Assembly (NCBI GenBank): GCA_949152475.1
Contig: OX424566.1
Span: 12,671,177-12,735,176, forward strand
From: Terebella lapidaria
Lineage: Eukaryota; Annelida; Polychaeta; Terebellida; Terebellidae
DNA: 64,000 nt
Direction of reading: 5' to 3'
Below are positions 8,088 through 44,869 of the stretch, piece after piece. A program made the position numbers and the translations under genes. The notes under the pieces are model-generated. The model had not been told where the DNA came from and ran no database searches. It saw only the letters and a list, made by a program, of their open reading frames with translations. Position 1 is the stretch's first letter. Each line of letters starts with the position of its first letter.

Positions 8088-8383
8088 CCTAATGCACTTC
8101 CACAGGGATACACTCACAGAGGAACGAGACATGGGCCTCAAATCATGTTTTACACTGTTAGCTGCGGTGAAAAGGTCGTGATGTATGTGGATGATATCCC
8201 CATCCGTGCATGCATAATTAACGAAGTGGTTTTGCCTGAAACGTGTGAACAAACCTTAGCCTGGGGACATGGGGTGTTTGAACACCGATTGTCCTTGCCT
8301 GTTGACACTTCCCCAGGGAACAGATCAGAAAGCTGTTGGTTTTGTCACCAATGTATGATATATACTATTTATAAATGAAGAAA
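8088..8383 (+). pseudogene. Exon-like block with a conserved frame and YxDD-like motif (copy A)
   Basis: The plus frame reads through LPNALPQGY, then about 20 residues later MYVDDIPIRACIINEVVLP. Relatives at 12,640, 25,838 and 29,255 give MYLDDILI, VYLDDILI and VYFDDILI in the same frame, some of the changes being synonymous (GAT/GAC). LPQG about 30 residues before a YxDD motif is the spacing of retroelement reverse transcriptases. Nothing else in the block looks like one, so the resemblance may be chance. The frame here stays open from about 7,893 to 8,378. It is probably an exon relic of the duplicated unit; function unknown. Confidence 0.3.
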
Positions 8384-12645: not shown

Positions 12646-12925
12646 TAATGTACTCCCACAGTGATAAACTCACAAAGAAACGAGAGCGTGGGCCTCAAGT
12701 AATGTTTTACACCGTGAACTGTGGTGAAAAAAGTGTGATGTATTTGGACGATATCCTCATACATGTATGCATAATTAACGAAGTAGGTTTGCCGAAAATG
12801 TATGAACTAAGCCCAGGGGACATAGAGGTGTTTGGACACAGATTGTCCTCGCTTGTTGACACTGCCTCAGGTAACAGAGAGGGGAAGGTTTCAGGATATA
12901 TCAGGGATAGATGCTATATATAATA
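12640..12925 (+). pseudogene. Exon-like block with YxDD-like motif (copy B)
   Basis: Relative of 8,088-8,383. The plus frame reads MFYTVNCGEKSVMYLDDILI and then CIINEVGLPK. A TGA replaces the glycine codon of LPQG (the sequence reads CCACAGTGA), so this copy is interrupted. Confidence 0.3.
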
Positions 12926-13559
12926 TTGCATGAAGAAAGAAGTTGAGATTTTCCTCTATAAATATTGTACGAATACCTACATTTTCCCCTACTATATAAC
13001 TGACATAAAGCATAACCATGTATGGGGCAAAATCCAAGCTGTAAAGCGCACATCCGTTTTAAGAGATATTGACATGTGAACCCCTAAATTACATGCCTTT
13101 GAATTTTTTCTTACTTTGTCAGAAACATGTACATGTAGAGACGGCTGTTTACCTGAAACTGTTTGATCTTGTTATGATATTAAATGAAAGAGTCGAGAAA
13201 TGAGAATCGCATTTTCCATTCTAGTTGAGTCGTCTTTTCTTCCGTAAATTTGTAACAGGCATTCGAACGATATTTGACGTATGAGTGCATAGAACAAAGA
13301 CATGGGCTGTCTGAAATCTATATTTAGAAACAGGTCATCTGCTGTTGGTCTGGTGTTCTAACAATTGGCAGAAGAACTTGGCACGACATGCCTAATTTTT
13401 CCCTCATTCTCCTTGCATCCTCCCGACTTCGGGGCAAACCACAGGGAAAAAAAAACATTTCACGTAGTGTCGAGTTGGTCTAAGGTGCCAGTTTATGAAA
13501 TTGTGTCCTGGCCAGAATGCTAGAAGATGTCTGCGTTGAATGAACTAGGAAAGAAAACA

Positions 13560-15240
13560 ACCAGGTCATTTTGTCGTGAGCGAGAGATGCTAATCAAGAG
13601 GATGACTATAATGGCAATTTTGTATGGACCACAGCACTGATGCTATCGATTTGTACTACTGCTCCTCAGGTCCGCTCATTACATACTACCTACTAAAACG
13701 GTATACACCGTCTGATCATGTTTTCTGTAATAAGTCATTCTCCATATAAAGTGTGTGGTCTATGATGTGTTTAATGCCATATTCCGATCACGACTGACGG
13801 AGGATAGCCGGATTACAGCCCCAGGCTCTGGGGATCCCGGTGGTTCTGACTCAGAGTTAATGAGCGATACTATGTCAAGATGGAACATGACATGTTCCTC
13901 ACTGAGGAATGGTATGAGAGTCTGCTCATCTCGTAGCTCGTGTAAGCGACGGCGTTCAAGAAAATTGAATACTAAGGTAAAATTGACACTGAAAATGAGG
14001 AATTATTTTTTATGTATGAGAGTTGGGAATGAGTTGAAAATTTGTCGAATTCCGGACGTCTCGTCCTTTTAGAATCGAACTTGGTGCATTTACACTACTG
14101 ACTACGACCGCATCGATGTAATGTTTGTAACACTTGTAATACTTTATGTATGTTTCAAAAGCACATGGAATCTGAATACATATAGGAGCACCTACATTAG
14201 CACCGCTTTGTCAATCTTCTCAACAAACTGAAATATGAATGCTTTGAATTGTTCAGCTGTTTCGATTCTTATCTGCAGGTAAATTTGACAGCAGCATTCC
14301 CATGTATTTAAAACATTTTTTGGATACGTGTGTGGAATAATACCACGCCATATAACACGATTTAATACACTTCATAGTGATATGATATACGGATTGCTAT
14401 TAAATTGTTTTGTATGTCTTTCTTATAAAAAGGATGAACACTTTCTGGAAAAGTGAAAAAAAATTCTTGCTTATATGCCAAATAATATTAGCTCTATTAA
14501 AATTATGTTGCGATAAACATACGACGACTTTGATAATCGATTGCATAAAATAGTGTGCAGCTGTGAGATATACATATTTTATCATATCATCGGAATCGTG
14601 TTGAAGTTGTTTGGATTTCTAGAATGATTTGCTGCTTCAGGTATATATCTGTACATTTGTCCATCCCAGTATGACATTGGTAAATATTTGATCACTGATA
14701 CAGAATTGTTAGAAACATATGGTCGCCACTAATACCATCGAGATTGTACGCATGAATATATTGCTTCCAATACCAGTAGATCTTGATCATGGCAATCAAA
14801 AACTTTAAACGAAAACCTACAATGACGTGTGGATTCTTCAACTCTGAGCAAATACCGTCGTCCAAGAAAGGTAAAATCTCAACCACTATTGTCGAGAGAT
14901 TCTTTTTCCTGCAGTGGAATTTTAGACGACATTGGGACACGTTGATCACTTACGTAAGTATATTCTAAGGAACTTGAAATTAAAGATACTCCTCAGATTT
15001 GTTAGAGAGTCTGCGGGAATACTGTATATTAACCTAACCTAAGCCACAGCGAAACTACAAGAAAGAGCTTGATACCACAGCCAGTTGCATCTTTGCGCAC
15101 TTAGTTCATTTCATTCGAAGGTATTTGACGGAACAACAGTTGTGACACAGTTCATTTTAGTAAGATTATTAAGATTTTTTCCCGAGGTTAATTGATTTGA
15201 TTTGGACCTACATTGTGATTTAATTTTGTCCTGCTTGTGT
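13560..15240 (+). repeat. Oldest copy of the 3.3-kb module set
   Basis: This stretch follows the order seen at 26,640-28,640: the patch with GGTGGTTCTGACTCAGAG and ATGAGCGATA (13,790-13,900), the block at 14,200-14,280, the block at 14,400-14,700, and the block with GACGACATTG near 14,920. It is considerably more diverged than the other copies, which makes it useful for judging which reading frames were conserved (see findings). Confidence 0.55.
14206..14272 (-). pseudogene. Candidate conserved minus-strand exon (oldest copy)
   Basis: On the minus strand a CAG acceptor is followed by a 22-codon frame whose core reads TAEQFKAFIFQFVEKIDK. Younger copies at 27,360-27,428, 30,642-30,710 and 34,014-34,082 read TAEKYKAFVFQFVDIIAK or close variants. 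Most replacements are conservative (K/R, Y/F, V/I, D/E). It is likely an amphipathic helical segment of an unknown protein. Confidence 0.35.
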
Positions 15241-23419: not shown

Positions 23420-25837
23420 AGTGTCCACGAGCCAGACCAATGCTTATCGCCATCGGCTCATCGAGCAAATTGGTCTTTGTGTATCTTTTTTAGTAAAGGA
23501 ATGAAATAATTCTGTGGTTGTCCCCTCAATAATAATTTCAACATCCATTACTAGTAGATATAATAGGACTAAAACCAAGATCATGACCATGTACTTGTCA
23601 ATATTAAATACCAGCAGGTTTTTCATGAAATGCTGATGTATTTTTTGTGAAATGGTCATCGTCCTGTTGAGTGGCATGGTATCGAGTGAATTTGACCTTA
23701 TAACTTATTCATTTTTCATCACCACATTCTCCCCTGTTTCACCTCTAGAGAAACCCTGCGTAAATTGGAATATTTTACCCGCAAACACATGATATAATAT
23801 CCATGTCATCCCTCGGGCTTCACAGGGGTAAGGAAGTTGAAAGGGGTATACTTCAAGCCGACATTTGGGTTTTTTACCAAAAGCACACACGAAAATAATT
23901 CCTCAATGGAGCAATGTGCTGACGTTATTACTGGAGATGAAACGTCCCACGAGTGAATGAGTTGTAAGCTGTGTTCGTGTCTGTGTTCCCAAGTAGAAAT
24001 AGCTTACGGTTTTGGAAGACGTGCATTTCTGTAATAACAAATTCGTAGACCTAACTGCAAAAAAATGAATGATTAGTTTATAACATAATCAAGTTTGTAG
24101 AGTAGATGAAACGTTTTATTTGCATGCCCATATATACATCAATGGGGTATGCTTCTGACACACATACTTAGTAATATATTTTCAGAAAATAGCTATGCTC
24201 TCAATGCAAATGTTGAATACAGCGAGATTAAATTATTGGAATAAGGGGGAGGGGGATCGGGGGATTCGGGAAGAACTCCCAAGTTGTGCCAAGTTGTTCA
24301 GTCCGAAGTGAAATCCGAACCAATGCACATGTATGGGGTTCTACTTGTGTGCCACAATATTCGATATTCATTAACAGCGTCAATATATCGTTCCCTATAG
24401 AAAAATGCATTATTTCCAGTCAAAGATGTGATATATTGAAATGAATTGAAAATGTGACGGTATTGCTGACACAAGGCTCGTAGGGCGAACTAGATCTGGT
24501 ATGCAGTTATGTAAAGTGAGCGTCATTGGGAATTATGTGTAACTCTACGCTCCTATATGAAAAACGTCCTACGATTTCTCACAACAACGTATGTTTTGAA
24601 CATTTTTTTTTAACTTGTAGAAGATTTATAGCTTTGCAATCATTTCTCACCAGATACCTTGCCTGTGCTCTATGAGGATTCAGCCTAATATTCATGCCAC
24701 TCCGGTGTGTTGCGCATTTGTGGGTGGTACTAAAAACATATGATATTAGATCGAGACACATGTGTCCATCGACAATTAAGTATATTACTCTGGACTGATT
24801 GGCATTCAGCTCTTGTACCGCGGCTATACCCCAGTGTCTGTTTAGTCAATGTTGTACCACATTCCTGTCTGATTCATCATGCGTGGGATCTACCTCCTCT
24901 AATTAGCGTCCAAAACCGTCTACGCGTGCTAGATTGTCATGGTTAAGTTTATTTCCCATACAGTGTTGTCTGCATTGTTCCGAACAGTTCATTTGAGATA
25001 TAAAGAGGAAGGCAAAGGAATTATCGTGCAATAGGCACAAGGGTACGTTGGTGAAATGAAAGTATATTTTGTACTGGATGTGAATATTTGCAAGCTTTGA
25101 ATGAATGCTTTGTACTTTGCCAAATACTACCAAATCTCATAGCAAATTTTCTTTGGTAAATAATGACAGTGGATACGTCCTCAATGTATGAGTTCTGACC
25201 AGTCTCTCCTCACCTTATGCTATATATGATCAATGCACGCCATTGGATCTTTTATCATGACATTATGAACGGAGATAACTGGGCATATAAATATGTCTAC
25301 AGTCAAAGCAATAACACGAACTGCAGCAGGGAATAGGTCATAGGGTATTCTCATAATCATTGCATCACTTCAGAAAAGAACATCATCTCAAATTACACTA
25401 GTCATAATTCCATAATTGAAAATGAACAAGTAATGAGTTAGGTCAATAGTAGTCTGTGACATGATATCAATAATATCATTATTAATTAAAACCTTGTTTT
25501 ATTCACTTTCTATATTCATCCAGAACAATCAACAAGGCTACTGGCTTCAGAAGTACATGTGTACATTTTTAGTAAGCTGTTAAGTGAAAGTTCATATATT
25601 AAAAAAACGATACTGTAATTGTGCCCCAAGCAGTACAAGAAAATCCTTGGTAAACCAGAGAACTTTCGTAATTCACATCCCTGTATACCCCACGAGGTTG
25701 ATGTTGTTTGCTTCTCTCAAGTGGGTAAGGTTGGTTTTATAACTATGTTATATTCAGATTACATTCAAAGACTAATATAATCAAATAAGACTATATTCAT
25801 TTATACTTCATCAAGGTAATTCGTTCAGCCAAGGTTT
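23420..25837 (+). repeat. Fourth copy of the position-1 module
   Basis: Follows the 1-2,566 module with large gaps. The patch with CACGAGCCAGACCAATG lies near 23,430, the counterpart of 870-1,060 at 24,740-24,930, the counterpart of 1,340-1,400 near 25,040, and the counterpart of 1,940-2,100 at 25,170-25,290. The stretch 23,700-24,600 has no visible counterpart. It runs into the YxDD-like block at 25,838 and the 3.3-kb repeat series. Confidence 0.6.
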
Positions 25838-26115
25838 ACTCTCCTAAAGTACTTCCACAGTGATAAACTCACGGAGGAAGGAGAGCGGGCCTCAAGTAAT
25901 GTTTCACATCATGAGGTATGATGAAAAGATTTTGGTGTATTTGGACGATATCCTCATCCGTGCATGCATAATTAACGGAGTAGTTTGCCCAGAATGCCCA
26001 TAGCTAGCCTGAGCCCGGGGAAGACAGGGGTGTTTGGACACTGATTGTCCTTGCCTGTTGACACTGTCCTCAATGAACAAAGCAGGGAGATTATTGTTCT
26101 ATGATAGATATATGC
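25838..26115 (+). pseudogene. Exon-like block with YxDD-like motif (copy C)
   Basis: The same frame as copies A and B reads VYLDDILIRACIINGVV and then shifts and stops (a TAG near 26,000). A TGA also interrupts the frame near 25,860. Confidence 0.3.
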
Positions 26116-27359
26116 TATATATATATTTAGTGAAGAAAAAATCGAGACATTCTTTTGACCTGATCTCATGGCTTCACATGAGAACCCCAAAATTACTCAC
26201 CAAATATTTAGTTTGGCAGAATTTGAAGACAAAAAAATATTTGATATCGTTATTGATATCGGATGAAAGAAACGAGTACAAGAAACGAACTTCCCATTTG
26301 TTGATTATTGTGGTGATGTCGTACCCAAGTCTTTTTCGTTTTGTATCTCATACCTAACCATATTTGATTCAAAACTCCACAAAACAAAGACACAGACTGT
26401 CTGATGTCTAAATTTACAAACTATCATCCACTGGGTGGTCTGGTGTTTCAATTATTGGTGATAACTTTTATAAATGATATGCCTCGTTTTGCTCTCCTCC
26501 AGCAGAATACTCATATAGATGCGGAACATTTTGAACCATAAGGTGCCAGTTTGTGAAATTGCGTCATGACCAGAATGGCAGCGTTGAATCAACTGCGATA
26601 GAGTATAGCCATGCAGTTTTCTCATGGGTTTCAGTGTACATGTGAGTCGAAAAGTGGGAGGTTAATCAAGGGGACACTTAAAGTGGCGAGTCTGTATGGA
26701 CCACAGCACTGATGATATTGATTTCTGTCAATACACTTCCAGTCTTGCTCATTACCTACTCACCACTCAAACTGTGTATGTCTGATCGAATTTTCTGCAG
26801 TAAGCCATTCTCCATATATATAGCGTGCGGTCAGTGGTATGTTTAATTCCATGGTCCGATCAGCTGGTGAAGCAGAGCTGGATTACAGTCCCAGGCTCTA
26901 GGGACCTCAATGGATCTGATTCGGGAGGTAATGAGCGATAGAGGTAGAGATGGAACATGTACTTTCTTCACTGGGGACTTGTATAACAAGCTGTTTGTAT
27001 TGTATCTTGTCTAAGTTTTAACGACCATGGGCAAGGGGCAACCTACTAGGTATTTTGCTTGAATATAAAGCATTTAAAGTTGGGTTTCAATTACTAATAA
27101 ATACAAGTAATTCCGTGATTATTATCATATTAATATCATATAAATCATGCTTTGCATTCATTAATTCATCTTTACATTCATTAACATGAAATTCATTACC
27201 ATCCAATTTCAGAAACATATTTTAGAGGATTATGAAATTGATTGCTGAATCATTGTAATGAAAAGTGCATAATGTCTGTGAACACCTGACAGATATAATT
27301 CAAGAGCACATGACTCATAATGGCCTATATGAACACCTGCAGAGCACTGCATTTTTCAC

Positions 27360-27428
27360 CTTCGCGATGATATCAACAAACTGAAATACGAATGCTTTGT
27401 ATTTTTCAGCTGTTTTGAATTTGATCTC
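27360..27428 (-). pseudogene. Candidate 69-bp minus-strand exon (unit 1)
   Basis: On the minus strand, TGCAACTGCAG acts as acceptor, then exactly 23 codons read EIKFKTAEKYKAFVFQFVDI and IAK, then GTGAAA could be a donor. Copies in units 2 and 3 and the old copy at 14,206 keep the frame, mostly with conservative replacements. A copy near 43,300-43,370 has a one-base insertion and is broken. On the plus strand the same DNA also has a plausible acceptor, so the coding strand is not settled. Confidence 0.35.
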
Positions 27429-29254
27429 CTGCAGTTGCAGGCAAATGTGACAGCAAAATATTGTGTCATTAAACAGTGTCATGCGTGAGTGGAATACTAC
27501 ACTTTTTGACACGATTTAGTACACTTCATAGTGATATGAATTATAGTTTTGTAGGGTTTCTAATTCATATAACGAACGCTTCTTGGAAAACGACAGAGTG
27601 GCTCTCAGGCACATTCAATAATATTGGCCTCGTGAAGGTAGTTTTTCATGAACACGAGCGATAAAGTATTTTGAAAATTGAAATAGAATCTGCAAGCGGC
27701 TCTGAAGTAGCCTATTAACTTATACTTTTGGGATTTCTAGATGATTCACTGCGTTCAATATGATTTCTGTGTGGATGCTGGTTTTGGTATGGAGTTGACA
27801 AACATTTGATAACCAATATATTCAGTCTTATCACATCAAACAATGGACACCTAATATATCATTAAACACCTACAGCTGTGACTGAGATAGACGACACCGT
27901 AAGGATCTAGACATTTTCTCCAAAACCTAACACAAGCCTGCCATTACAGGGACCAAAAAATCACTGAGTAAGTATTCATCCTCTTGCAACAGAATTCTAG
28001 ACGACATTGCGTCACTGCAAACTTGGCCAGGTGTGAATTTGTGTACACAGCAGCAATACCTCAAGCAGGGTTCACTTGTTTATTCACCTCGGCAATTTTC
28101 TGGTGACAAGTGGTGATTTTTTTTCCACTTTACGTCTCATTCTCCGAAAACAAACCAGAGAAATATTAATTTTCCTTCGAGAGCTTTCACACAAAACCAC
28201 TATTAGTTTCTTCATCATCGAACCACTTGCTCTACTCCAGTGGTTCAAACTCGCTGGGGAGCTTGCAGAAAACTGTATATTAATAAATGCACAGTGCTAC
28301 ACAGCGAATCTACAACAAATAACCCAATACCACGGCCAGTTGCGTCTTCACACTGTCACACAGTTTATTTCATTTGAAGGTACTTGGCGAAGCCAAGTGT
28401 TCTCAGTAGAAAGTTCATTTGTTCAATGAATCAACAGAGAATGACGTTTGTTCCAACAAGATCATTAGGATTTTTATGCGGGTTAATTAATTTGATTCCA
28501 CCCTGTGGGTGGTGTTTGAGCAACCTTGTCGCGTTTATAATTACCACTCGGGAGTCTAAATTTAAACCATCTTGAGTGATAATTTGAGCGAGATGGAAAC
28601 AATGATAATTCGACATTAGTTATGAAACAAATGAATGTAAAGGGCAAAAAATTTCTGAAATATTTTTTTTTTCATGTAAATATTGAAATATTTTCATTTT
28701 TACTGAATCAGCTCTAATCAGACATGCTTGTGTTGAATTATGCTCCATATAGAACAAATGAGTTTGTCTTTACATGCAGTTGTTACAGCCAATGGCCCAT
28801 TGTTTGACGCGAAGAGTGCAAGTTAATAGGGTTCAAATGTCTACAGTAAGTGGCAACGTCCTTCGCTATTGAGCTTTTTTTATATACACCGCTGTGCAGC
28901 ACACGGTCAGAGCAAGTACTGAATGACTCAACCCTGGTCATCAAAACATCTTGGTGCGGTCGTTACCGCCACACGTGCACCACCCCCGTCCTCCCCAAGA
29001 CGTATCAGAGAACCTAATCACTGTCTTTTCGATGGTAATCCAGAGAACTTTCGTAATTCTCATCCCTGGATTCCCCAAGAGGTTGATGTTGTTCCCCTCA
29101 CTCAAGTGGGTAAGGGTGGACGGTGGTGTTATAACGTATAACTGTGGTAGGTTATATTCAGATTACATTCTAAGACAAATATAATCAGATTAAGATTATA
29201 TTCATTTATACTAAATCAAGGTAATTTGTCTGATCGTTCAACCAAAGTTTACTC

Positions 29255-29520
29255 TCCCTGATGTACTTTCACAGTGATAAACTCACGGAGGAATAAGAGT
29301 GGGCCTCAAGTAATGTTTCACATCATGAGGGGTGATGAAAAGGTTTTGGTGTATTTTGATGATATCCTCATCCGTGCATGCATAATTAACGGAGTAGTTT
29401 TGCCCAGAATATCCAGAGCTAGCTTGAGCCCGGGGGAGACAGAGGTGTTTGGACACTGATTGTCCTTGCCTGTTGACACTGTCCCCAATGAACAAAGCAG
29501 GAAGATGATCGTTCTATGAG
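29255..29520 (+). pseudogene. Exon-like block with YxDD-like motif (copy D)
   Basis: The frame reads GPQVMFHIMRGDEKVLVYFD and then DILIRACIINGVVLP. As in copies B and C, a TGA stands where copy A reads LPQG. Confidence 0.3.
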
Positions 29521-30641
29521 AGAGATATGCTATATATATATGCTATATTTTGAGTGAAGAAAGATTTGAGATATTCCATTGACCTGATCTCAGGGCTTCA
29601 CACGAGAACCCCAAAATTAGTCACCAAATATCTACTTTGACAGATTGAAACGAATTTTCCATTTGTTCATTATTGTGTTGATGGCGTACCGAAGTCTTTT
29701 ACATTTTGTTTCTCATTACTTACCATTTTTGATTCACAAAACAAAAACTCCACCAAACAAAGACACAGACTGTCTGATATCTAAATTTAGAAACCACCAT
29801 CCACTTGGAAAACTTTGACCCTTAAGGTACTACATTGTAGTTTGTGATATTGCGTCATGACTAGAATGCTATAAGAGGGCTGCGTTGAAACAATTGAGAA
29901 AGAGTACAGCCATGCAGTTTTCTCATGGGTTTCAGTGTGAGTCGAAGGTTGGAGGTTAATCAAGGGGACACTTAGAGTGGCAACTCAGTATGGACCACAT
30001 CACTACCTGGTGATATTGATTTATGTCAATGCACTCCCAGTCAGCTCATTACGTACTAACCACTGAAACTGTGCACAATCTCAAGTTTTCTGCATCAAGT
30101 CATTCTCGATATATATATAGCGTGCGGTCTGTGGTTTGTCGAATGCCATATTCCGATCAGACCTGGTGAAGCAGAGCTGGACTAGAGCCCGGCTCCAGGG
30201 ACCTCAGTGGTTCTGATTCGGAGGATATGAGCGATAGAAGTAGAGATGGAACATGTACCTTCTTCACTAGGGACTTGTATAACAAGATGTTTGTGTTGTA
30301 GCTTGTCTAGGTATTAACGACCATGGGCAAGGGGGCAACCTACAAGGTATTTTGTTTGAAATATAAAGCATTTAAAGTTGGGTTTCAATTACTAATAAAT
30401 ACATGTAGTTCCGTGATTATTGTCATAATAATACAATGTACCATATAAATCATGCACATCTTCCAATTAACATCTTCCGATTTCAGAAACATATTTTAGA
30501 GGATTATGAAACTGATTGCTGAACCATTGTGATGAAAAGTACATAATGTCTGAAACCACCATGTTTTCTGACAGATGTAATTCAAGAGCACATGACCCAT
30601 AATGGCCTATATGAACACCTGCAGAGCACTGCATTTTTCAC

Positions 30642-30710
30642 CTTCGCGACGATATCAACAAACTGAAATACGAATGCTTTGTATTTTCCAGCTGTTTTGA
30701 ATTTGATCTG
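30642..30710 (-). pseudogene. Candidate 69-bp minus-strand exon (unit 2)
   Basis: The 23-codon frame reads QIKFKTAGKYKAFVFQFVDI then VAK. The AG acceptor is kept (ACTACAG) and the GTGAAA donor is kept. Confidence 0.35.
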
Positions 30711-32176
30711 CTGTAGTTGCAGGCAAATGTGACAGCAAAACATTGTGTCATAAAACAATGTCATGCATGAGTGGAATACTACACTGTTTGACACGATTTA
30801 TTACACTTCATAGTGATATGAATTATAGTTTTGTAGAGTTTCTAATTTATATAACGAACGCTTCTTGGAAAACGACAGAGTGGCTCTCAGACACATGTAT
30901 ATTCAATAATGTTGACCTCGTGAAGGTAGTTTTTTATGAACACGAGAGAATAAAGTATTTTGAGAATTGAAATAGAATCTGCAAGCGGCTGTGAAGTAGC
31001 CTATTGAAACTATTGGGATTTCTAGATGATTCACTGCGTTCAATATGATTTCTGTTTGGATGATGCTTTTGGTATGAAGCTGACGAACATTTTATAACTA
31101 ATACATTCAGTCATATCACACCAAACGATGGACACCTAACATATTATATAAAATACTTACATCTGTGACTGTGAGATAGACGACACTGTAAGAATCTATA
31201 CATTTTCTCCAAAACCTGATACAATCCTGCCATCAAAGGGACTGAAAAACACTGAGAATACTGTCGAAGTATTCATCCTCTTGCAGCAGAATTCTAGACG
31301 ACATTGCGTCACTGCAAACTTGGTCAGGTGTGAATTCGTGTACACAGCAGCAATTCCTCAGACCGGGTTCCCTTGTTTATTCACCTCAGCAACTTTCTGG
31401 CGACAAGTGGTGATTTTTTTCCACTTTACGTCTCTTTCTCCGAAAGCAAACCAGAGAAATATTAATTTTCCTTCGAGAGCTTTCACACAAGACCACTATT
31501 AGTTTCTACATCTTCGAACCACTTGCTCTACTCCAGTGGATCGAACTCGCTGGGGATCTTGCGGAAAACTGTATATTAATAAACCTACAGTGCCACACAG
31601 CGAATCTACAGCAAATAACCCAATACCACGGCCAGTTGCGTTTTCACACTGTCACACAGTTTATTTCATTTGAAGGTACTTGACGAAGCCAAGTATTCTC
31701 AGAAGAAAGTTCATTTGATCAATGAATCAACAGAGAATGACGTTTATTCCAACAAGATCATTAGCATTTTTATGCGGGTTAATTAATTTGATTCCACCCT
31801 GTGGGTGGTGTTTGAGCAACCTGGTCACGTTTATAATTATCTAGGGAGTCTGAATTTAAACCGTCTCGAGTGATAATTTGAGCGAGATGGAAACAATGAT
31901 AATTCGACATTAGTTATGAAACACATGAGAGTAAAAGGTGAAAAAATGTCTGAAATATTTTTTTCATGTAAATATTAAAATATGTTCATATTTACTGGAT
32001 CAGCTCGAGTTCGCCCTTACATATAGTTGTTGCAGTCAATGGCCCATTGTTTGACTCGAAGAGTGCAAGCTTCTATTATCTACACCGCTGGGCAGCATAC
32101 GGTCAGAACGAGTACTCAAGGACTCAGCCCCGTTCATCAGAACATCTTGGTGCGGTCGTTACCGCCACACGTGCAA

Positions 32177-32193
32177 CCCCCCCCCCCCCCCCC
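32177..32193 (+). repeat. Poly-C run, 17 bp
   Basis: An uninterrupted C17 tract. The equivalent place in unit 3 (35,655-35,669) is also a C run, while unit 1 has a shorter mixed CCACCCCCGTCC tract. The tract has grown within the array by slippage. Confidence 0.9.
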
Positions 32194-34013
32194 AAAGACG
32201 TATCAGAGAACCTAATCACTGTCTTCTCGGGAAATGCCCCGCCATTGTTGGAATAGTTCCAAGGGTGACGCTCACGGCCCAATGTTTTGGTGGTTCCCAA
32301 TCATCATCTCGAGACATTTCGGCATGGCTCAGCTTTTAAAGTCCGTTCATTATTTTTCCTCGTGTCCATGGTCGTTTGAACCTCAAATGACTTTCAACAG
32401 TACGTTGAATGGAGCATTTCTCTCTCTAAATTGATACTGGGCATAGACTCGGTCATTGAAGTGTTCAGTACGGCCGACTTTTGAGTATAATGAGTTGTAA
32501 GCATTGTGTCTCTTTTATTGGAGAATCCGGACTTGATTGTTGCTGGGAGAAAAGCGGAAGATCGATGTAAAGTCCAACATAAACTGAGGGATAACGTCGA
32601 CTACACTGTGTCCGGATATCTTTTTTCTATGAGATAATGTGTCGTTTATAATTAAATTATGGTCCCTTTATTTAGCGAAGTGCGGTAGGAGGTCATGCGC
32701 AAATTAATTTATTCGATGTAATGAATAACGTCACAGTTATTTGGATCAGGGAAATGTTTGCCCTACAGTTTACCAGGTGTTGACATATGGGCACAGCTTG
32801 ATCACAATGATAGCTATAGCTTATAGGTAATTTAACAAATAGGCTAACGCTGTTGGACATGCACTATACATGTATTATATAATAACTGAATGCTGTGTGC
32901 AGCCACCTTCGTAATGTAAATAACATCACATCGAAACATATTGCTCTGATGCTGGTGTGAACGATATAACCAGCAAGTTAGTCCCTTGTTAGCAATATTG
33001 GTATATTCAGGAAAATATTCAAAACATTTCTGTAAACTAAATGGGTCAAATACAGTTATCACGAAAGCACGTATGCGAGACATGCATACATTACATAACG
33101 TTTCCCTCCTCCTTGCGAGATACCTACTTAGAGGGGCAAACTGATAAACCCATGAGGTGCTAATTTGTGAAATTGCGTCATACCACAATGCTAAAATATG
33201 GCTACGCTGAATCAACTGGGAAAGAGAAAAACCAGACAGTTTCTTCACAGGTTTCACTCTAACTCGAAAGCTGGGAAAGGTAGACATGATCACACAGGCA
33301 AGGGATGAAAAACTGGAGCGAAGGAGGTTAATCAAGAGGACACTTGACGTGGCAAGTCTGTATGGACCTCAGCACTGATGATATTGATTTGTGTCATTAC
33401 ACTCACAATCTTGCTCATTACGTACTAACCACTGAAACTGTGTATGTCTGATCGAATTTTCTGCAATAAGCCATTCTCTATATATACAGTGTGTTGTCTG
33501 TGGTGTGTTTAATGCCATATTCCGATCAGGCCTGGTGAAGCAGAGCTGGATTACAGCCCTAGGCTTCGGGGACTTCAGTGGTTCCGACTCTTAGATAATG
33601 AGCGATAGAGGTAGAGATGGAACATGGCCCCTTTTCACTGGGGACTTGTATAACAAGATGTTTGTGCTGTAGCCTGCCTGGGTCTTAACGACCATGTTCA
33701 AGGTGGCAACACACATGGTATCTTGTTTGAAATATAAAGCATTTAAAGTTCGGTTTCAATTACTAATAAATTCATGTAATTCCATGATCGTTGTCATATG
33801 AATTCAATATAAATGATGCTTTGCAATTGAATTCATCTCTACATTCACTAACATCTTCCAACATATTTTTTACAGAATTATGAAACTGATTGCGGAACCA
33901 GTGTAATGAAAAGGACATAATGTCTGTAAACGCCATTTTTCAACAGATATAATTCTAGAGCACATGACTCATAATGGCCTATATTAACACCTTCAGGGCA
34001 CTGCAATTTTCAC

Positions 34014-34082
34014 CTTCGCGATGAAATCAACAAACTGAAATACCAATGCTTTGTATTTTTCAGCTGTTTTGAATTTGATCTG
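34014..34082 (-). pseudogene. Candidate 69-bp minus-strand exon (unit 3)
   Basis: The 23-codon frame reads QIKFKTAEKYKALVFQFVDF then IAK, with CTGCAG acceptor and GTGAAA donor retained. Confidence 0.35.
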
Positions 34083-34259
34083 CTGCAGTTGCAGGCAAAT
34101 GTGACAGCAAAACACTGTGTCATAAAACAATGTAATGCGTGAGTGGAATACTACACTTTTTGACACGATTTATTACACTTCATAGTGATATGAATTATAG
34201 TTTTGTAGGGTTTCTGTTTGATACAACGAACACTCCTTGGAAAAACAAAAGAGGGGCTC

Positions 34260-34351
34260 TCATGCACATGTATATTCAATAGTGTTGGCCTCATGAAGGT
34301 CGTTTTCTATGAACATGAGAGAATGAACGAGTTTGAGAATTGATTCAGAAT
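34260..34351 (-). pseudogene. Second candidate minus-strand exon (unit 3)
   Basis: After CTGTTTGCAG on the minus strand the frame reads DSESILKLVHSLMFIENDLH and then EANTIE. Relatives read DSKSILNLVHSLMFIQKSLH (ending near 41,437) and DSKSILNFVHSLMFIQKSLH (near 43,640). A more decayed version lies at 27,610-27,700. On this strand it would lie upstream of the 69-bp candidate. Confidence 0.3.
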
Positions 34352-35702
34352 CTGCAAACAGCTCAGAAAGTAGCCTATTGAAAGTATTGGTATTTCTAGA
34401 TGATTCACTGCGTTCAATATGATTTCTGTTTGAATGATGGTTTTGGTTTGAAGTTGACAAACATTTGATAACTAATACATTCAGTCATATCACACCAAAC
34501 GATGGACACCTAACATATTATATAAAATACTTATATCTGTGACTGTGAGATAGACGACACCGTAAAGATGTAGACATTTTCTCCAAAACCTGATACAATC
34601 CTGCCTTCAAAGGGACCGGAAAACACTGAGAATATTGTCGAAGTATTCATCCTCTTGCAGTAGAATTCTAGACGACATTGCGTCACTGCAAACTTGGCCA
34701 GGTGTGAATTTGTGTAAGCAGCGGCAATTCCTCAGGGTTCACTTGTTTATTAACCAGGCAATTTTCTTGCGAGAAGTGGTGACTTTTTTCCACTTCACGT
34801 CTCATTCTCTGAAAGTAAACTAGAGAAATATTAATTTTCCTTCAAGATTTTCTACACAAAACCACTATTAGTTTCTCCATCCTCGAGCCACTTGCTCTAC
34901 TCCAGTGGATCAAACTCGCTGGGGAGCTTACAGAAGACTGTATAATAATAAAAATAATACAGTGCCACACAGCGAGTCTACAACAAATAACCCAATTCCA
35001 TGACCAGTTGTGTCTTCACACTGTCACACAGTTCATTTCATTTGAAGGTACTCGACGAAGCCAAGTGTTCTCAGAAGGAAATTCATCCATGAATCAACAG
35101 GGAATGACGACGTTTATTCCAACAAGATCATTAGGATTTTTATACGGGTTAATTAATTTGATTCCACCTTGTGTGTGGTGTTTGAGCAATCTGGTTGGGT
35201 TTAAAATTACCACTCGGGAGTCTAAATTTATCCCGTCTTGATTGATAATTTGAGTGAGATGGAAACAATTATAATTCGACATTAGTTATGAAAACATGTG
35301 ACTAAATAGTGAAAAATATCTGAAATAATTTTTTTTTTCATGTAAATATTGAAATATTTTCATTCTTACTGGGTCAGCTCTAATCAGACATGCTTGTGGT
35401 GAAACATGCTGCGTATTGAAAAGATGAGTTCGTCTTTACATGCAGTTGTCACAGCAAATGGCCCATTGTTTGACTTGAAGAGTGCAAGTTACTAGAGTTC
35501 AAGTGTCTACAGTAAGTGGCAACATCCTTCGCTATTGAGCTTCTATTATCTAAACCGCTGGGCAGCACACGGTCAGAACGAGTACTCAAGGACTCAGCCT
35601 CGGTCATCAAAACATCTTGGTGCGGTCGTTACCGACACACGTGCACCTCCCCCTCCCCCCCCCCCCCCCAAAGACGTATCAGAGAACCTAATCACTGTTT
35701 CC

Positions 35703-36976
35703 TTAGTGTAATGCCCCGCCATTGTTGGAATATTTCCAGGGGTGACTCTCACGGCCCAATGTTTTGGTGGTTCCCAATCATCATCTCGAAGCATTTCGGC
35801 ATGGCTCAGCTTTTAAAGTCCGTTCATTATTTATCCTCGTATCCATGGTCGTTTGGATCTCAAATGACTTTCAACAGTACGTTGAATGGAGCATTTCTCT
35901 CTCTAAATTGATACTGGGCGTAGACTCGGCCATTGAAGAGTGCTCGGTATGGCCGACTTTTGAATACAATGAGTTGTAAGCATTGTGTCTCTTCTAGTGG
36001 AGATTCCGGACTCGGTTGTTGCTGGGGAAAGAGTGGGAGATTGTTGTAAAATACAACGTAATCTGAGCGATAATGTGGAATCAACTGTCCCGGGGATCTT
36101 ACTTATGAGATAACGTGCCGTTTATAATTAAATTATGGTCATTTTATTTAGGGAAATGCAGTCCTGTAGAAATAAATTTATTTGATGCACGGAATAACAT
36201 CGAGGCTTTTTGCATTAGGCAATGTTTGTGTTGCAATTTATCTGGTATTGACATAAGGGCATAGCTAGATTACAATAACACTGTAGGATAACGCTGTTGA
36301 ACCCGTACTACATTATATAATAACTGAACGTCGTGTGTAATCGCCTTCGAAATGTAAACAATATCAAATCGAAAACTGTAGCATAAACATATTGCTGTGA
36401 TGTTGGTGTGAATGATATATCCAGCAAATTAGTCTCTTGTTAGCAGTATTGGTTTATTTGGGATGATATTCAAAATATTCGTGGCAGATTCCCGTAAACT
36501 AACTGGGTCAAACACAGTGATCACGAAAGCATGTATGCAAGACCAGCATACAAAACATAATGTTTCCCTCCTGCTTGCGAGATACCCAATTAGAGGGGCA
36601 AACCTTCGAACTCATAAGGTGCCAGTTTATGAAATTGATTCCTAAGGAGAATGCTAAATGATGGCTAAATTGAATCAACTGGGGAAGGGAATAACAAGGT
36701 GCTTTTTAACCGGTTTTAGTCTAAGTCGAAAGCTTGAAAAAGTAGACATAATCACACAGGCAAGGAATGAAACACTGGAGCAAAGGAGGTTAATCAAGAG
36801 GACACTTGAAGTGGCAAGTCTGTATTGACCACAGCACTGATGATATTGATTTCTGTCAGTACACTCACAATCTTGCTCATTACGTACTAACCAATAAAAC
36901 GACAGTGTGCATATTGTCTGGTCGAGCTTTCTGCAATTAGTCATTCTCCAAATATATAGTGCGTGGTCTGTAGTGT
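35703..36976 (+). repeat. 3.3-kb series, unit 4, part left of the transposon
   Basis: Contains the modules matching 32,230-32,940 and the start of the block matching 33,290-33,500. It is interrupted at 36,976 by the inverted-repeat element and resumes at 40,965 with TGTGTTTAATGTCATATTCC, exactly the text that follows in unit 3 (33,501 onward). Confidence 0.75.
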
Positions 36977-37615
36977 TAGTCAGGAGGAAATTTCACACAG
37001 GGTGGAAACGTAGTACAGACTTTTTCTGTCGATTGATATGGCTTCATAATGGTCTAAGACAACCTTTTTCAGAGGGTGTGTAAAATTTTCTCCCGGGCTA
37101 ACTTTTTTATGGCCTTTTTCAAAATGGCCGACATCGAAAATTTGGTATTTTAGGAAAAAAAACCAAAATTATCCTCCTGGCATGATGCTTTTGGTCTATT
37201 AAGGTGACATTTAGTTACATGGAGATATATTCTTCATAACAATACTAATAATACCGATTCAAACGCCCCGAAAATGGAAAAAATCCAAGATGGCTGCCAA
37301 ATTCTTGCCATTTTTACACAAATGTTCATAACTTCCTGCCAAATTGAGATGGGAAGCCAATTTTGGTGTTTGACCCTGGGTTTTGGGATATGAGGATTTC
37401 AAATATATAACCAGTTTTGTTTTTGGATGGTTTGAAGCTGCTCAGAATCCAAGATGGCTGCCAAATTTTAGCCCGATTTCGCAAATAAGCACCAATGACC
37501 GTCACATATATATCAAGATAACAAGCCAACTCTGGTGGCCAGTCCTGGGCTTTGGGGTATGAGGGTGCTACTTGAAGAAATATTCTTGTGTGTAGATGGT
37601 AACTGGCCAATTTAT
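36977..37615 (+). repeat. Left terminal inverted repeat
   Basis: About 640 bp, matching the reverse complement of 40,318-40,964 with moderate divergence. Inside it, a subrepeat of about 167 bp beginning AATCCAAGATGGCTGCCAAA occurs twice (near 37,284 and 37,447). The outer part carries AAAATGGCCGACATCGAAAAT. The two terminal repeats have diverged by substitutions and indels, so the insertion is not recent. Confidence 0.9.
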
Positions 37616-37744
37616 AGGTGTTCAAAGGCGAAGATAACCATTAATTAATGTGAAACATGTAAACGAACCCGTCTAATAGCACCCACTCGCACAAAATCAA
37701 CAGAATCAACCACTATCAGACAGAAAAAAAATATTTCTGAGCCA

Positions 37745-40130
37745 ACTCCTCGGGAGGTCTGACCAGACTCTCACCAGACCATCCTCACCAGACCATCCTC
37801 TACATTGGGATTGCTCATCATAGTCACCATAGAGCCCTTACAGAGTGTAACATTAGCAGAAAGGTTGCATTCAATGGGTACAGGTGTTGGATTCTTCTTC
37901 AAGCCAGATATATTCTCGATAACATTCACAGCAACAATCTTCGATTTCTGTCTCTTCAAAGAATCAGTCTGCAGCAGCAACTTTCTGGAAAGAAAACACA
38001 TGAAGTACATCTGCTTGGATCTGTGATCCTTAAGCATCTCCTAATTTTCAGAGCTCTATGATTCAACATCTCCGAAAACGATTTGTCATTTTTTTTGTCT
38101 CATTATGTCGGTCAAAGTAGTAACCTTGAAGTCGTCCCAAGGCTCTGCAAGGGCAGCTGGGTCTCAGTATTTGTCCTCTTACATGCGGCAGTGGATAAAA
38201 TCACTGACTGCCAGAATCATGAAGAACTTTTGTTTCTCATGAGTTGATCCAGACGACCTCTGATGAATTTCAGCAAGCCTCTGCTGATATCTCATCAATG
38301 ATTATCAGCTCGAGGTTTTGAAACCTAACCTTTGGGGGCAGTGATGAGCTCTTCAGCAAGTGGTATATACTTTTGTCCCACACCCCTTAGCATGGAAGCA
38401 TGGTTCCGCCACTGATGGTAAATGCTTCTTTGCCAGTTGCAGCCACACATCAGAGCTTTGATGATATAAAACTTTCCTTTACCAATATATTGAAAGTCCC
38501 CAGACATTTTCCATTCATCTTATCGATGCACCACTAGCGAGTATGAATGAAGACTTTCCCTTGCATATTGTTCATGCACTGCATGAGATCTTGAGCCTGA
38601 TTCTATGGGATTGCCAAGATGCTGTGCTCTACTGACAACTGAGCCCATCTTGGTGTTGGAGCTCCGAGGCAGGCCACTCAATCTGGCAGGTCTTCCAAAC
38701 TGATGTCCTCGAGGTAAGCGTCATCTAGGTTGGCTTTTGTTTCCAAGCGTCCAGCCACCACTTGCTGGGGCAATGTGTGCCGAGGCATCTTCTGCAAGAT
38801 GATTTTCTCGGATCTCTTCATGGCTACTTCAACCTCTTTGATATTATTTCCAAATAGCGCTTGCTTTTCTCTAGTAATGTTGCTGATGCTTGTCCTTTTG
38901 CCATAGTAGGAAATGCTCCCACTCATTTAAATCCATTTCAAAGTGGTTAAGATAAAAACCCATGAGATTCTGATAATGTTTCTCACTGTCCCTACAGATG
39001 CGCAAGCTTTACTGAAAGATTTCCGTCTTCAGATCTATCATTTATTCCCAGCCAACTTCGATGAAGCATATGGAACATTGGACCGGTTGTCGTTGTTATG
39101 GGTAGAATTTTCTTCAGATGGTTCATAATCTCTACCTGGTTTACTATCAACATTGAAGAGGGATACAATTTCAACCAGACAGGTCTTTGAGAATATCTAT
39201 AGGAGGGCGTGCATAGTACATGTACATGTACCTGTCTAGTACAGATATACAGTGTAGCCACACGTAATCAATGCCTGAATCTCAGTGGCCCAGCAGTAAG
39301 AATGGAAGTGTCAGTCTGGTACTTGTCGGATCTGCAAGTATCCAAACAACATGCCGACTACAGTTTTTGAGAGGTGTGCCTGTGGCCTTGTGAATAGCCT
39401 CCATGCAACTCATCTCCCTGTTGGTCAGGTATGTTTTGCCTAGTCATTGTAGCTTATCGTCTGTCTTATCCCAGCATATTGTGCTCTGCATGGTTCTTCA
39501 TGAAGGAGCGGACCATCTTCACTCTGCTTCTTGTTGCAATAATATGACACAATATATCGAATGCAGGCGTATGCATCAACAACATATTGTGAGTCAAAAT
39601 TAGGATTCCAAGCTTTCAAAGGGTTTTGATTTGCACTGACTTACCCATCAGTCTCTGTGTTTATGTTTATGTACAACCATTTTCGTGGAGGCTATAATGT
39701 TCCAGGCTTGTTCTTCAGCAGCGTTTTTTCACTCATCTGGATCAGTGTCTGCTGGGCTGACAAGAAGGTGGACGGGATAACCTGAACCTGTGGGTCCTGT
39801 TACCCTTCTTGCATGACTTTGTATAATTCTTGAAATGAAGCTGAACATCATTTATGATGTCATGTAACTTGCTGTATCTCGTCTAATCAACGTCCTCTGT
39901 GTTGATATATTTTTTAATAACGTCAACAACTTCCTCATCAAGTTATTTGTCCAGCTTAGGAGGATTTTATACTCAGAAAAGTACCAATGTGAGGCCAATC
40001 TCCTCGTAGAAACTCAACTGAAACAAAGTAGTCACAGACTTTGCCAATTTGATTTGATGGTGAAGTGATCATCAATTTCAAGAGTTTTTTTACTATCTGA
40101 TCAAACATTCTGGCAGCTGTTATATGGTTT
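37745..40130 (-). pseudogene. Decayed Helitron-like Rep/PIF1-like helicase gene
   Basis: Read on the minus strand with frameshifts and stops, the order is as follows. An HUH region at 39,960-40,120 (FDQIVKKLLKLM, then VEFLRGDWPHIGTF); the family motif PHxH has become PHIG, removing a metal ligand. A Cys/RPP segment at 39,785-39,836 (YTKSCKKGN..RFRLSRPPS). The catalytic-Tyr segment at 39,541-39,590 (VVDAYACIRYIVSYY), with both tyrosines kept. TNREMSCMEAIHKATG at 39,376-39,425. A linker with YARPPIDIL. Then a PIF1-type helicase: a damaged Walker A (38,460-38,500, IGKGKFYIIKAL), Walker B LELIIIDEIS at 38,285-38,315, WDDFKVTTLTDIMRQ at 38,090-38,143, and the C-terminal GSMVTMM..NVEDGLV near 37,785-37,850. 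Such proteins drive rolling-circle-type transposition in Helitrons. This copy is clearly inactive. Confidence 0.85.
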
Positions 40131-40317
40131 TAAATGCCTAATATAATATACTTGGTATTGATATGCCTGATATAATATACTTGGGTTTAATTGCTCGGAA
40201 AAAAATTATGCCTGGTAGTTGTACTGTTTATTTTGAAGTGCGAGTGAGTGCTAATTAACAGGTTTGTTTGCATGTGTTTTATTAATGAGTCCTTATCTTG
40301 GCTTTTGGACAGTTGGA

Positions 40318-40964
40318 TAGCTTTAAACTGGCCAATCACCATCTACACACAAAAGTATTTCTTCAGGTAGCACTCTCATACCCCAAACCCCAGGAATGGC
40401 CACCAAAATTGCCTTCTTATTTTGAATATGTGACGGTTATTGGCGCTTATTTGCGAAATCGAGCTATCGTCTGGCAGCCATCTTGGATTCTGAGCATCTT
40501 CGAACCATCCAATCATGAAACTGGTTATTTATTTGGAATCCTCATACCCCAAAACCCAGGGTTAGACACCAAATTGGCTTCCTATCTCAATTTGGCAGGA
40601 AGTTATGAGCATTCATGTAAAAATGGCGAGAATTTGGCGGCCATCTTGGATTTTTTCCATTTTCGGGACGTTTGAATCAGTATTATTAGTATTGTTATGA
40701 AGAATATATCTCCATATAACTAAATGTCACCTTAATAGTCCAAAAGCATCATGCCGGGAGGATAATTATTTTTTTTCCTAAAATACCTAATTTTCGATGT
40801 CGGCCATTTTGAAAAAGGCCATAAAAAAGTTAGCCCGGGAGAAAATTTTACACACCCTCTGAAAAAGGTTGTCTTAGAGCATTATGAAGCCATATCAATC
40901 GATAGAAAAAGTCTGTACTACATTTCCACCCTGAGTGCCATATGCTCAATATTCCTCCTGACTA
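40318..40964 (-). repeat. Right terminal inverted repeat
   Basis: Reverse-complement partner of 36,977-37,615. A 125-codon open frame (40,298-40,675) and a 99-codon frame in the left repeat are just translations of this shared repeat, because the two copies mirror each other. They are not genes. Confidence 0.9.
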
Positions 40965-42589
40965 TGTGTTTAATGTCATATTCCGATCAGGCCTGGTGAA
41001 ACAGAGCTAGATTACAGCCCTAGGCTCCAGGGACCTCAGTGGTTCTGACTCCGAGGTAATGAGCGATAGAGGTAGAGATGGAACATGGCCCCTTTTCACT
41101 GGGGACACATATAACAAGCTGTTTGTGTTGGAGTTTGTGAAGTCTTACCGACCATGTGCAAGAAGGCAACACGCGTGGTATTTTGTTACGGCAACAGCCT
41201 TGTGTCACAAAAATAGTCTCGTGCTGGAGTGGAATACCACACTGTATGACACGATTTAATACACTTCATTTGGTGATATGAATTATGGTTTTGTTTCTAA
41301 TTCATATAACGAACGCTTCGTGGAAAAAACGAGAGAAGGGTTCTGATTATTTTCAATAGTGTTGGCCTCATGAAGGGATTTTTGTATGAACATGAGAGAA
41401 TGAACCAAGTTTAGAATTGATTTAGAATCTCCAAGCAGCTCTGAAAGTATTGGGATTTCCAGATGATTCACTGCGTTCAGTGTGATTGTTGTATGATAAT
41501 TTTGGTATAAGCTTGACAAACATTTGATAACTGCTACAGTCAGTCATATCACGTCAAAAAATAATGGATTATATGTGATTAGAAACATACAGCTGTGAGA
41601 TACACGAGAGCATTCAGTCATTCATACTGTCGAGGCAATTCTCTTGCAGTCGAATTCAGGACAACAATGCGTCACTTTGCAAACTTGGTCAGGTGTGAAT
41701 TTGTGCACACAATGTTAATTCCTCAGGATTTACTGGTTTATTCACCTGGTTCATTGGGATTTTCTGATAATTGATAACTGTTACACTCAATCATATCACG
41801 CCAAACAAAGCACATGATTAGAAACATACAGCTGTGTTACACGAGACTGTAAGGATCTAGACATATTCTTCAGTATATGATACAATCCTGCCATTAAAGG
41901 GACCAAAAGTCATTGAGAATATTGTCGAGGCATTCAGTTAATCATATTGTCGAGGCAATTCTCTTGCGGTTGAATTCAGGACAACAATGCGTCACTTTGC
42001 AAACTTGGCCAGGTGTGAATTTGTGCACACAATGGTAATTCCTCAGGATTTACTTGTTTATTCACCTCGGTAATTTTCTGGCGAGAAGTGGTGACATTTT
42101 CCCACTTTATGTCTCATTCTCCATCTTAAGCAAACCCCGAGAAATATTAATTTTCCTTCGAGAGCTTTTACACAAAACCACTATTAGTTTCTCCATCTTT
42201 GGACCACTTAGCCTACTCCAGTGGGTCAGACTCGCTGGGGAGCTTGCAGAAAACTGTATATTAATAAACCTACCACACAGCAAAAGAACCCAATACCACG
42301 GCCAGTTGCGTCTTCGAACACACAGTTTATTTCATTTGAAGGTACTTGATGGAGCGAAGTGTTCTCCTGAAGAAAGTTCATAACTGAATCAACAGGGAGC
42401 TATGACGTTTATTCTAACAATATCGTTAGGATTTCCATGCCGGTTGATTAATTTGATTTCACTCTGGTTGTGTGGAAGATTTCTGGGCAACTAACTTCGT
42501 CGCGTTTAAAATTACAACCAGAAGTCTAAATTTATCCCGTCTTTAGTGATTATTTGAGCGAAACGGAAACAATGATGATGTGACATCAA
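40965..42589 (+). repeat. 3.3-kb series, unit 4, part right of the transposon, rearranged
   Basis: Resumes the interrupted unit and then skips the modules between about 41,170 and the GTGGAATACCACACTGTATGACACG patch. A block of about 320 bp is then repeated in tandem (41,510-41,750 and 41,770-42,060; CGAGGCAATTCTCTTGC at 41,631 and 41,951). The module at 42,050-42,580 matches 28,070-28,620 and joins directly to the next unit. Confidence 0.7.
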
Positions 42590-44869
42590 TTACCAGACAG
42601 TTTACTCACCGGTTTCAGTCTAACTCGAAAGCTGGAAAAGGTAGACATGATCACACAGGCAAGGGATGAAACACTGGAGCGAAGGAGGTTAATCAAGAGG
42701 ACACTTGAGTGGCAAGTCTGTATGGACCACAGCACTGATGATATTGATTTCTGTCAATACACTCACAATCTTGCTTATTACGTACTCACCACTAAAACGA
42801 TAGTGTGCATACTGTCTGATCGAATTTTCTGCAATAAGCCATTCTCCACATATACAGCCCTAGGCTGTATTACAGCCTAGGTTTACAGCCCTAGGCTCCG
42901 GGGACTTCTGTGGTTATGACTGGGAAGTAATAAGCGATAGAGGTATTGGTGGAATACCTAGCTTTCTTCATTAGGGACTTGTATAACAAGGTGTTTGTGT
43001 TGGAGATTGTGTTGGTCTTACCGACCAATGGCAAGGGGCAACACGCATGGTATTTTGTTACAAATATGAAACAAAAATTGTGTTTCAATTACTAATAAAT
43101 ATGATCCATTATTACTGTCTTAAATGATTACTGGCTTAAATGTTTACGCAGTATAAATGATGCAATTAAATCCATCTTGACATTTGTCTTGCAATTAAAG
43201 AAACATGAAATACACATAATACCTGTACACACCATGTTTTTGACATGTTTTTTTACCTGATGACGTAGATGAACACCTGCATGAGCACTGCATTTTTTAC
43301 CTTCACGACGAAATTCGACACACTGAAAATATAAATGCTTTGCATTTTGCAGCTGTTTTGAATTTTATCCTCTGCAACTGCAGGCAAATGTAACGGCAAC
43401 AGCCTTGTGACACAAGAATAGTCTCGTGCGTGAGTGGAATACCACACTGTATGACACGATTTAATACACTTCATTTAGTGATATGAATTATGGTTTTGTT
43501 GGGTTTCTAATTCATATAATGAACGCTTCTTGGAAAAACGAGAGAATGGTTCTGATTATTTTCAATAGTGTTGACCTCATGAAGGGATTTTTGTATGAAC
43601 ATGAGAGAATGAACGAAGTTTAGAATTGATTTAGAATCTGCAAGCAGCTCTGAAAGTAGTGGGATTACCAGGTGATTCACTGCGTTCAGTGTGATTTTTG
43701 TATGATGCTTTTGGTATAACGTTGACAGATATTTGATACCTGCTACAGTCAATCATATCACGCCAAACAAAGCACATGATTAAAAACATACAGCTGTGAG
43801 ATACACGAGATTGTAAGGATCTAGACATATTCTCCAAAATAAGATACAATCCTGCCGTCAAATGGACCAAACATCACTGAGAATATTGTCGGGGCATTCA
43901 GTCATTCCTATTGTCGAGACGATTCTCTTGCAGTGCATGGAATTCAAGACGACTTTGCGTCGCTTTGCAAACTTAGCCAGGTGTGAATTTGTGCACACAA
44001 TGGTAATTTCTCAGGATTTACTGGTTTATTCACCTCGGTAATTTTCTGGTGAGAAGTAGTGGCATTTTTTATATTTTATGTCTCATACTCCGAAAGCAAA
44101 CCCGAAAAAAATATTTTATTTTTCCTTCAAGAGCTTTTACACAAAACCACTATTAGTTTCTCCATCCTCGGACCACTTGACCCACTCCAGTGGATCAGAC
44201 TCGCTGGGGAGCTTGCAGAAAACTGTATATTAATAACCCTGCCATACAGCAAAAGAACCCGATACCACGGCCAGTTGCGTCTTCGCACACACGGTTTATT
44301 TCATTTGAAGGTACTTGATGGAGCGAAGTGTTCTCCTGAAGAAAGTTCATCACTGAATCGTCAGAGAATTATGACGTTTATTCTAACAATAGCATTAGGA
44401 TTTTTATGCCGGTTAATTAATTTGATTTCACTCTGGTTGTGTGGGAGATTTCTAGGCAACTAACTTCGTCGCGTTTAAAATTACGACCAGAAGTCTAAAT
44501 TTATCCCGTCTTCAGTGATTATTCGAGCAAGATGGAAACAATGATGATGTGACATCAATTAAAAAAAAGCATGACGTCACACATCACGTGATACATGCCT
44601 GGAATATTTCTTTATGTAAATCCCAGAGTATTTTTATTTTTACTGGATCAGTTCTAATCAGCAATACTCGTAGTGAGCCACGCTCCATAATGAAAGGATA
44701 AGTTTGTTGTCCTGTACAGTGGTTGACCAAGTATCTACGATGCATTATGTACATACGGAATGTACCCAGTTGTCCATTGCTTGACTCGAGGGGTTCAAGT
44801 CACTAGGGTTCAAATGTATACGGTGAGTGGCAACGTTCTTCGCTATTGAGCTTCTATGATCTTCACAGC
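42590..44869 (+). repeat. 3.3-kb series, unit 5
   Basis: Matches 33,235-35,300 in order: CGAAAGCTGGAAAAGGTAGACATGATCACACAGG (42,625), the GATAGAGGT patch (42,935), the broken exon candidate (near 43,300-43,370), the second exon candidate (near 43,640) and the module at 44,020-44,560. At 42,855-42,892 the word CAGCC(C)TAGG occurs three times in 40 bp, one of them inverted, which looks like a local template switch. Confidence 0.7.

Follow-up and report, generated by a model that had tools for sequence, protein, structure and literature searches.

The element described here occupies positions 36977-40964 (3,988 bp) of the window, by which we mean the whole 64,000-nucleotide stretch that was analysed, C13:12671177-12735176 of a 762-Mb genome. 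Its termini read TAGTCAGGAGG...CCTCCTGACTA, with TAG at the ends (Table 1). The original prediction had given it inverted repeats of 640 bp; long inverted repeats are indeed present, but they are slightly longer, at about 715-730 bp. The aligned arms (36984-37692 and 40238-40947) form five collinear blocks that are 95% to 76% complementary, and in most copies of the element the two arms are about 88% identical.

Table 1. Features of the element and its insertion site (window positions)
Feature	Positions	Strand	Remark
Target-site duplication, left copy (TGT)	36974..36976		
Left terminal inverted repeat (TIR)	36977..37695	+	begins TAGTCAGGAGGAAATTTCAC
Decayed internal fragment, Helentron-type Rep-Hel gene	37777..40129	-	tblastn; approximately residues 495-1389 of the intact 1,754-aa relative
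PIF1-like helicase part of the fragment, approximate limits	37777..38707	-	in the intact relative, PIF1 spans residues 1065-1269
Rep part of the fragment	39180..40129	-	about residues 495-846
Right terminal inverted repeat	40236..40964	-	ends CCTCCTGACTA
Target-site duplication, right copy (TGT)	40965..40967		
Nearest paralogous empty site, neighbouring tandem unit	33461..33560	+	single TGT at 33504-33506

Insertion site and interior

The TGT duplication had previously been checked against an intact site at about 33,500, and this was confirmed: joined minus one TGT, the flanks align to the empty site in the neighbouring unit without an internal gap. Both flanks were matched at five places in the window, four of which (33365-33656, 26699-26989, 29993-30285 and 13627-13889) align cleanly through the site, while the fifth (42725-42989) has gaps there. 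The surroundings consist of a tandem array of related units at 1-13900 and 25800-44500, into one of which the element is inserted; the units are of kilobase scale, spaced about 2-5.5 kb apart, and are 61-100% identical in the blocks listed. Within the window no open reading frame starting with ATG, GTG or TTG reaches 180 aa, and Rfam returned no match at gathering score.

On the minus strand, the interior reads in the order Rep to helicase. Pfam examination of its stop-free pieces gave a Rep trace below threshold (PF14214, E=0.0077; score 16.9 bits, cut-off 28.9). The nearest of 23 Rep loci compared lies at C14:13676585, with a protein 62-67% identical in the longer Rep blocks. This locus holds a 1,754-codon open frame, which we class as a Helentron-type gene because it combines Helitron_like_N (348-545), PIF1 (1065-1269) and Exo_endo_phos (1572-1740). 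The intact relative aligns collinearly to the element interior, and on each side some 80-110 bp separate the gene match from the TIR. The residues matched are 495-1389 in the window copy and 494-1429 in L057, a diverged relative described below, such that the upstream breakpoint near residue 494 is common to both, and the downstream breakpoints, compared in these two only, are 40 residues apart. The interior had been described as one decayed gene with Rep and helicase segments in the correct order. Order and decay both stand, but to judge from this alignment what is present is only an internal fragment of one gene, without either of the gene's ends.

Copies, older relatives and the intact gene

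Used as a genome query, the left 324 bp gave 679 candidates, the best 40 of which were scored, at 98-100% identity. A 17-base pattern fitting both ends found 490 exact termini in the genome (247 forward, 243 reverse) and the reversed control none, a count far beyond chance. From the first 100 termini, which were the ones listed, 41 convergent pairs could be formed with 18 left over, and 30 of these pairs were 3.8-4.3 kb long. The other lengths included 716, 954 and 2,265 bp, which look like deletion forms (the two shortest are too short for the gene fragment), as well as five of 5.1-6.2 kb and one of 16.3 kb at C1:80642884-80659167.

The search of the termini across the genome and the comparison of flanks, as proposed with the original prediction, bear out the duplication, which is perfect at 3 bp in 19 of 21 copies, the window copy included. 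In the other two, L015 has one mismatch and L026 has the outer 3 bp of its left end altered. The 19 duplications follow no single motif, T/A being mildly preferred. Recurrence of the Rep-Hel piece inside the same termini was likewise established: the same interior lies between the same ends in all 20 further copies sampled (half of the 40 scored matches, of roughly 245 elements), some with deletions or inserts. These 20 are young copies, since they were chosen as top TIR matches. Three copies (L010, L018 and L026) were excluded from the alignment because of deletions or inserts, and the 18 aligned copies are 0.70-1.56% distant from the majority letter. Rep-Hel sequence found repeatedly between TIRs with target duplications is, by itself, no proof of a new Rep-Hel mechanism.

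Older relatives came from a search for an autonomous partner with the pattern TAGTCAGGAGGAANNVV, which excludes most of the main family and had 13 matches in the genome against one for the reversed control. Ten of these are related to the element, and three (L045, L047, L056) are without similarity. When 3 kb of each was examined, interior pieces were present in six of the ten (L046, L048, L049, L050, L053, L054) and absent from four (L044, L051, L052, L055); L044 measures 992 bp end to end, without the interior and with no matching duplication. The full element of L053, designated L057, is 4,185 bp long with flanks acg/aca (one mismatch), and its interior is 76-80% like that of the window copy in two main blocks. 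The presence of interior pieces in older relatives therefore places the entry of the fragment early in the lineage.

Helitron_like_N matches number at least 150 in the genome, and many of them sit in open frames of more than 2,000 codons. Around the intact gene, 15.5 kb was examined and contained neither a TAGTCAGG terminus nor TIR similarity. The same region (C14:13668500-13684000) also contains an 821-codon open frame preceding the Helentron-type gene, in which a RYQREETKGDILRRAKN-like repeat recurs many times and the 756 codons scanned gave no Pfam match; after the gene, units of about 147 bp form a long tandem array. As a genome query, the part of the intact gene that matches the element gave 353 candidates, the best 40 of which were scored, with gene and element loci side by side. 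Upstream of the breakpoint, about 0.7 kb was examined at six of the seven loci ranking next after the two best. At three (L069, L070, L071) the gene continues at 76-78% identity and the 0.7 kb contains no TIR match; one (L073) passes directly into the TIR at 81% identity; and two (L072, L074) have neither TIR nor further gene and look truncated. No locus examined combined the TIR with a part of the gene lying upstream of the breakpoint.

Decay of the fragment and origin of the family

Whether a gene drives an element or travels as its passenger can be told from a codon-position test together with shared disabling changes. When residues 481-1440 of the intact gene serve as reference, all 18 aligned copies have in common 18 frameshifting indels and 15 in-frame stops, and 23 and 19, respectively, are found in at least 90% of them; inside the matched piece, the numbers common to all 18 are 16 and 12. 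Because these disabling changes are common to all 18 copies, the copy that multiplied was already dead. Codon positions were counted only where the local alignment of window copy and L057 was at least 60% identical. Between these two, positions 1, 2 and 3 differ by 17.3, 16.9 and 16.5% (p=0.94), whereas the intact gene differs from either by 21-24% at positions 1 and 2 and by 41-42% at position 3 (p=1.2e-17 and 6.4e-19 for the third-position excess). Against the intact gene, the window copy and L057 have 14 indels in common, ten of them not multiples of three, a count that hangs on gap placement in one alignment. The equal codon-position differences and the shared indels thus indicate that the piece has been without useful coding since before the two lineages split, and, with the shared disabling changes, that it was dead in the common ancestor and that the family multiplied afterwards. 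The family still moved long after the gene piece stopped coding, which is our main argument against Rep-Hel as the driver.

With the termini, 3-bp duplications, empty sites, copy number, truncation and decay before amplification observed here, we are highly confident that this is a non-autonomous TIR cut-and-paste transposon, mobilised in trans, which carries a captured and long-dead Helentron gene fragment. Long ago, part of the interior of a Helentron-type Rep-Hel gene would have come to lie between the ends of an ancestral copy, probably through gap-repair capture or through insertion and subsequent deletion. This piece lost its reading frame before the split of the sampled lineages, and the element then grew into a family of a few hundred copies, among which the young ones are about 1% from their common sequence. 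The TAGTCAGGAGG termini would have been recognised by a transposase supplied in trans, which duplicated 3 bp of the target through what was probably cut-and-paste chemistry. Of the two readings in the original prediction, capture of a Rep-Hel gene by a trans-mobilised inverted-repeat element is accordingly the one that survives, though only an internal fragment was captured, and long ago.

As to how the piece arrived, a variant compatible with this explanation is that an older TIR element received an entire Helentron, which deletions later trimmed at both ends. We regard this route as possible but tentative: the 80-110 bp left between gene match and TIR on either side and the abundance of Helitron_like_N matches in long open frames would suit it, whereas none of the copies examined has a recognisable Helentron terminus and the upstream breakpoint near residue 494 is common to the window copy and L057.

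The other reading put forward originally, a Rep-Hel lineage that gained long inverted repeats and a target-duplicating mode, with the present copies as dead offspring of an intact element, now appears very unlikely. The association of Rep-Hel and termini is old, as the interior accompanies the termini in 20 of 20 further copies and in six of ten relatives. Nevertheless, both gene ends are absent in the window copy and in L057, coding constraint has been absent since the lineages split while disabling changes are shared, and the locus of the intact gene is without these ends. Moreover, a passage of PMC4067079 describes Helentrons as having short subterminal repeats, a 3′ palindrome and no target-site modification, while noting that earlier studies had sometimes reported such modification. 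The interior fragment derives from a gene of the Helentron type, with Rep-Hel and a C-terminal endonuclease, but the element itself, with TIRs of about 715 bp and a 3-bp duplication, differs from them as that passage portrays them. Two findings named at the outset as counter-evidence did not appear: no copy examined contained an unrelated transposase, and no Rep-Hel terminus was seen nested inside the repeats, the latter because the fragment lacks both gene ends. An inverted duplication around a dead Helitron, with TGT arising by chance, has nothing in its favour beyond its general possibility for a single copy and is already refuted by the 490 termini, the duplications in 19 of 21 copies and the several empty paralogous sites.

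Returning to the captured fragment in a trans-mobilised TIR element, its closest counterparts are the Pack-TYPE elements of plants (Pack-MULE, Pack-CACTA), which are described in part of PMC8903248 as non-autonomous TIR transposons with captured gene fragments. Like them, the element has TIRs, a target duplication, a captured truncated coding fragment, no transposase of its own that was seen, and a family that multiplied; a donor-type gene with an open frame is present elsewhere in the genome (C14:13.67 Mb). Pack-TYPE pieces come from coding genes, whereas here the piece comes from the gene of another transposon. Both readings had originally been called unusual; for capture this is less so, because Pack-TYPE elements with captured gene fragments have been described. 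In our literature search, we found no report joining Helitron and Rep-Hel with terminal inverted repeats and a 3-bp target-site duplication, and the family offers a clear case of a TIR element with a piece of a rolling-circle transposon's gene.

The mobilising enzyme

A DDE-type cut-and-paste transposase leaves its trace in long TIRs, a target duplication fixed at 3 bp and clean empty sites, and the element shows matching TIRs, many copies, a duplication of fixed length and empty sites, as a non-autonomous TIR transposon should. Helitrons and Helentrons, on the other hand, are characterised by insertion at A-T or T-T with no target duplication, and by CTRR with a 3′ hairpin or short subterminal repeats in place of long TIRs; among the copies examined there is no intact Rep-Hel gene with these ends, and the element instead has a 3-bp duplication and long TIRs. 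We infer that the mobilising enzyme must act in trans. Pattern, profile and TIR searches of the genome, together with the copies examined, yielded no autonomous partner with the element's ends. The pattern TAGTCAGGAGG with non-family bases at positions 18-19 gave 33 matches against 69 for the reversed control, with no convergent pair, and the TIR of a diverged copy, used as query, matched its own locus and, at 78-80%, 39 others that include known main-family copies. In L018 and L026, whose interiors are longer, the inserts measure 582 and 1,980 bp, and their open frames do not exceed 76 codons. An 11.3-kb left-left pair was considered as an autonomous candidate and rejected; we read it as two adjacent elements, because a 1.6-kb piece of it, at a distance of 4.2 kb from the first left end, contains a right end whose TIR is 85% alike. 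Discovery of the transposase could make the family an example of how passive elements that carry foreign cargo come to outnumber their masters. Separately, at C2:12159469-12171218, one right and four left element ends occur, the left ends at 2,644-bp spacing, which looks like local tandem amplification of part of an element copy.

Among known superfamilies, CACTA/EnSpm, whose termini begin CAC, is disfavoured, as the ends here read TAG and the single PF02992 (Transposase_21) match in the genome is unlinked to the element's ends. Academ elements have a 3-4 bp duplication and an XPG-bearing transposase; XPG_I has nine matches genome-wide, with no large expansion, and this count lends Academ no support. 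Four of the nine lie on small contigs (C436, C403, C75) with stops inside, possibly reflecting intron read-through or foreign contigs, and two chromosomal matches (C7, C8) likewise have stops. PIF/Harbinger and its relatives (PHIS) share with the element TIRs and a 3-bp target duplication, but each PHIS group has a rule of its own, given in a section of PMC4482050 as TWA, ANT, CWG or TNA, and the 19 duplications fit no single one; since TWA in particular is not followed, Harbinger-type enzymes are disfavoured. It is conceivable, though improbable in our estimate, that TAGTCAGGAGG ends, TIRs of about 0.7 kb and a 3-bp duplication following no single sequence rule mark a cut-and-paste superfamily with an undescribed transposase, the Helentron piece being a passenger that marks a non-autonomous branch. 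In Repbase, according to a passage of PMC4455052, non-autonomous families are assigned by the length of the duplication and the first 11 bp; matches to the terminal 11-mer in the text of 21 papers are probably chance ones, to judge from the titles of the ten listed. Within the genome (G000), the 19-mer TAGTCAGGAGGTACTGCAC, which combines the terminal 11-mer with different sequence, occurs at C4:32322856, C5:4830763 and C7:29946693.
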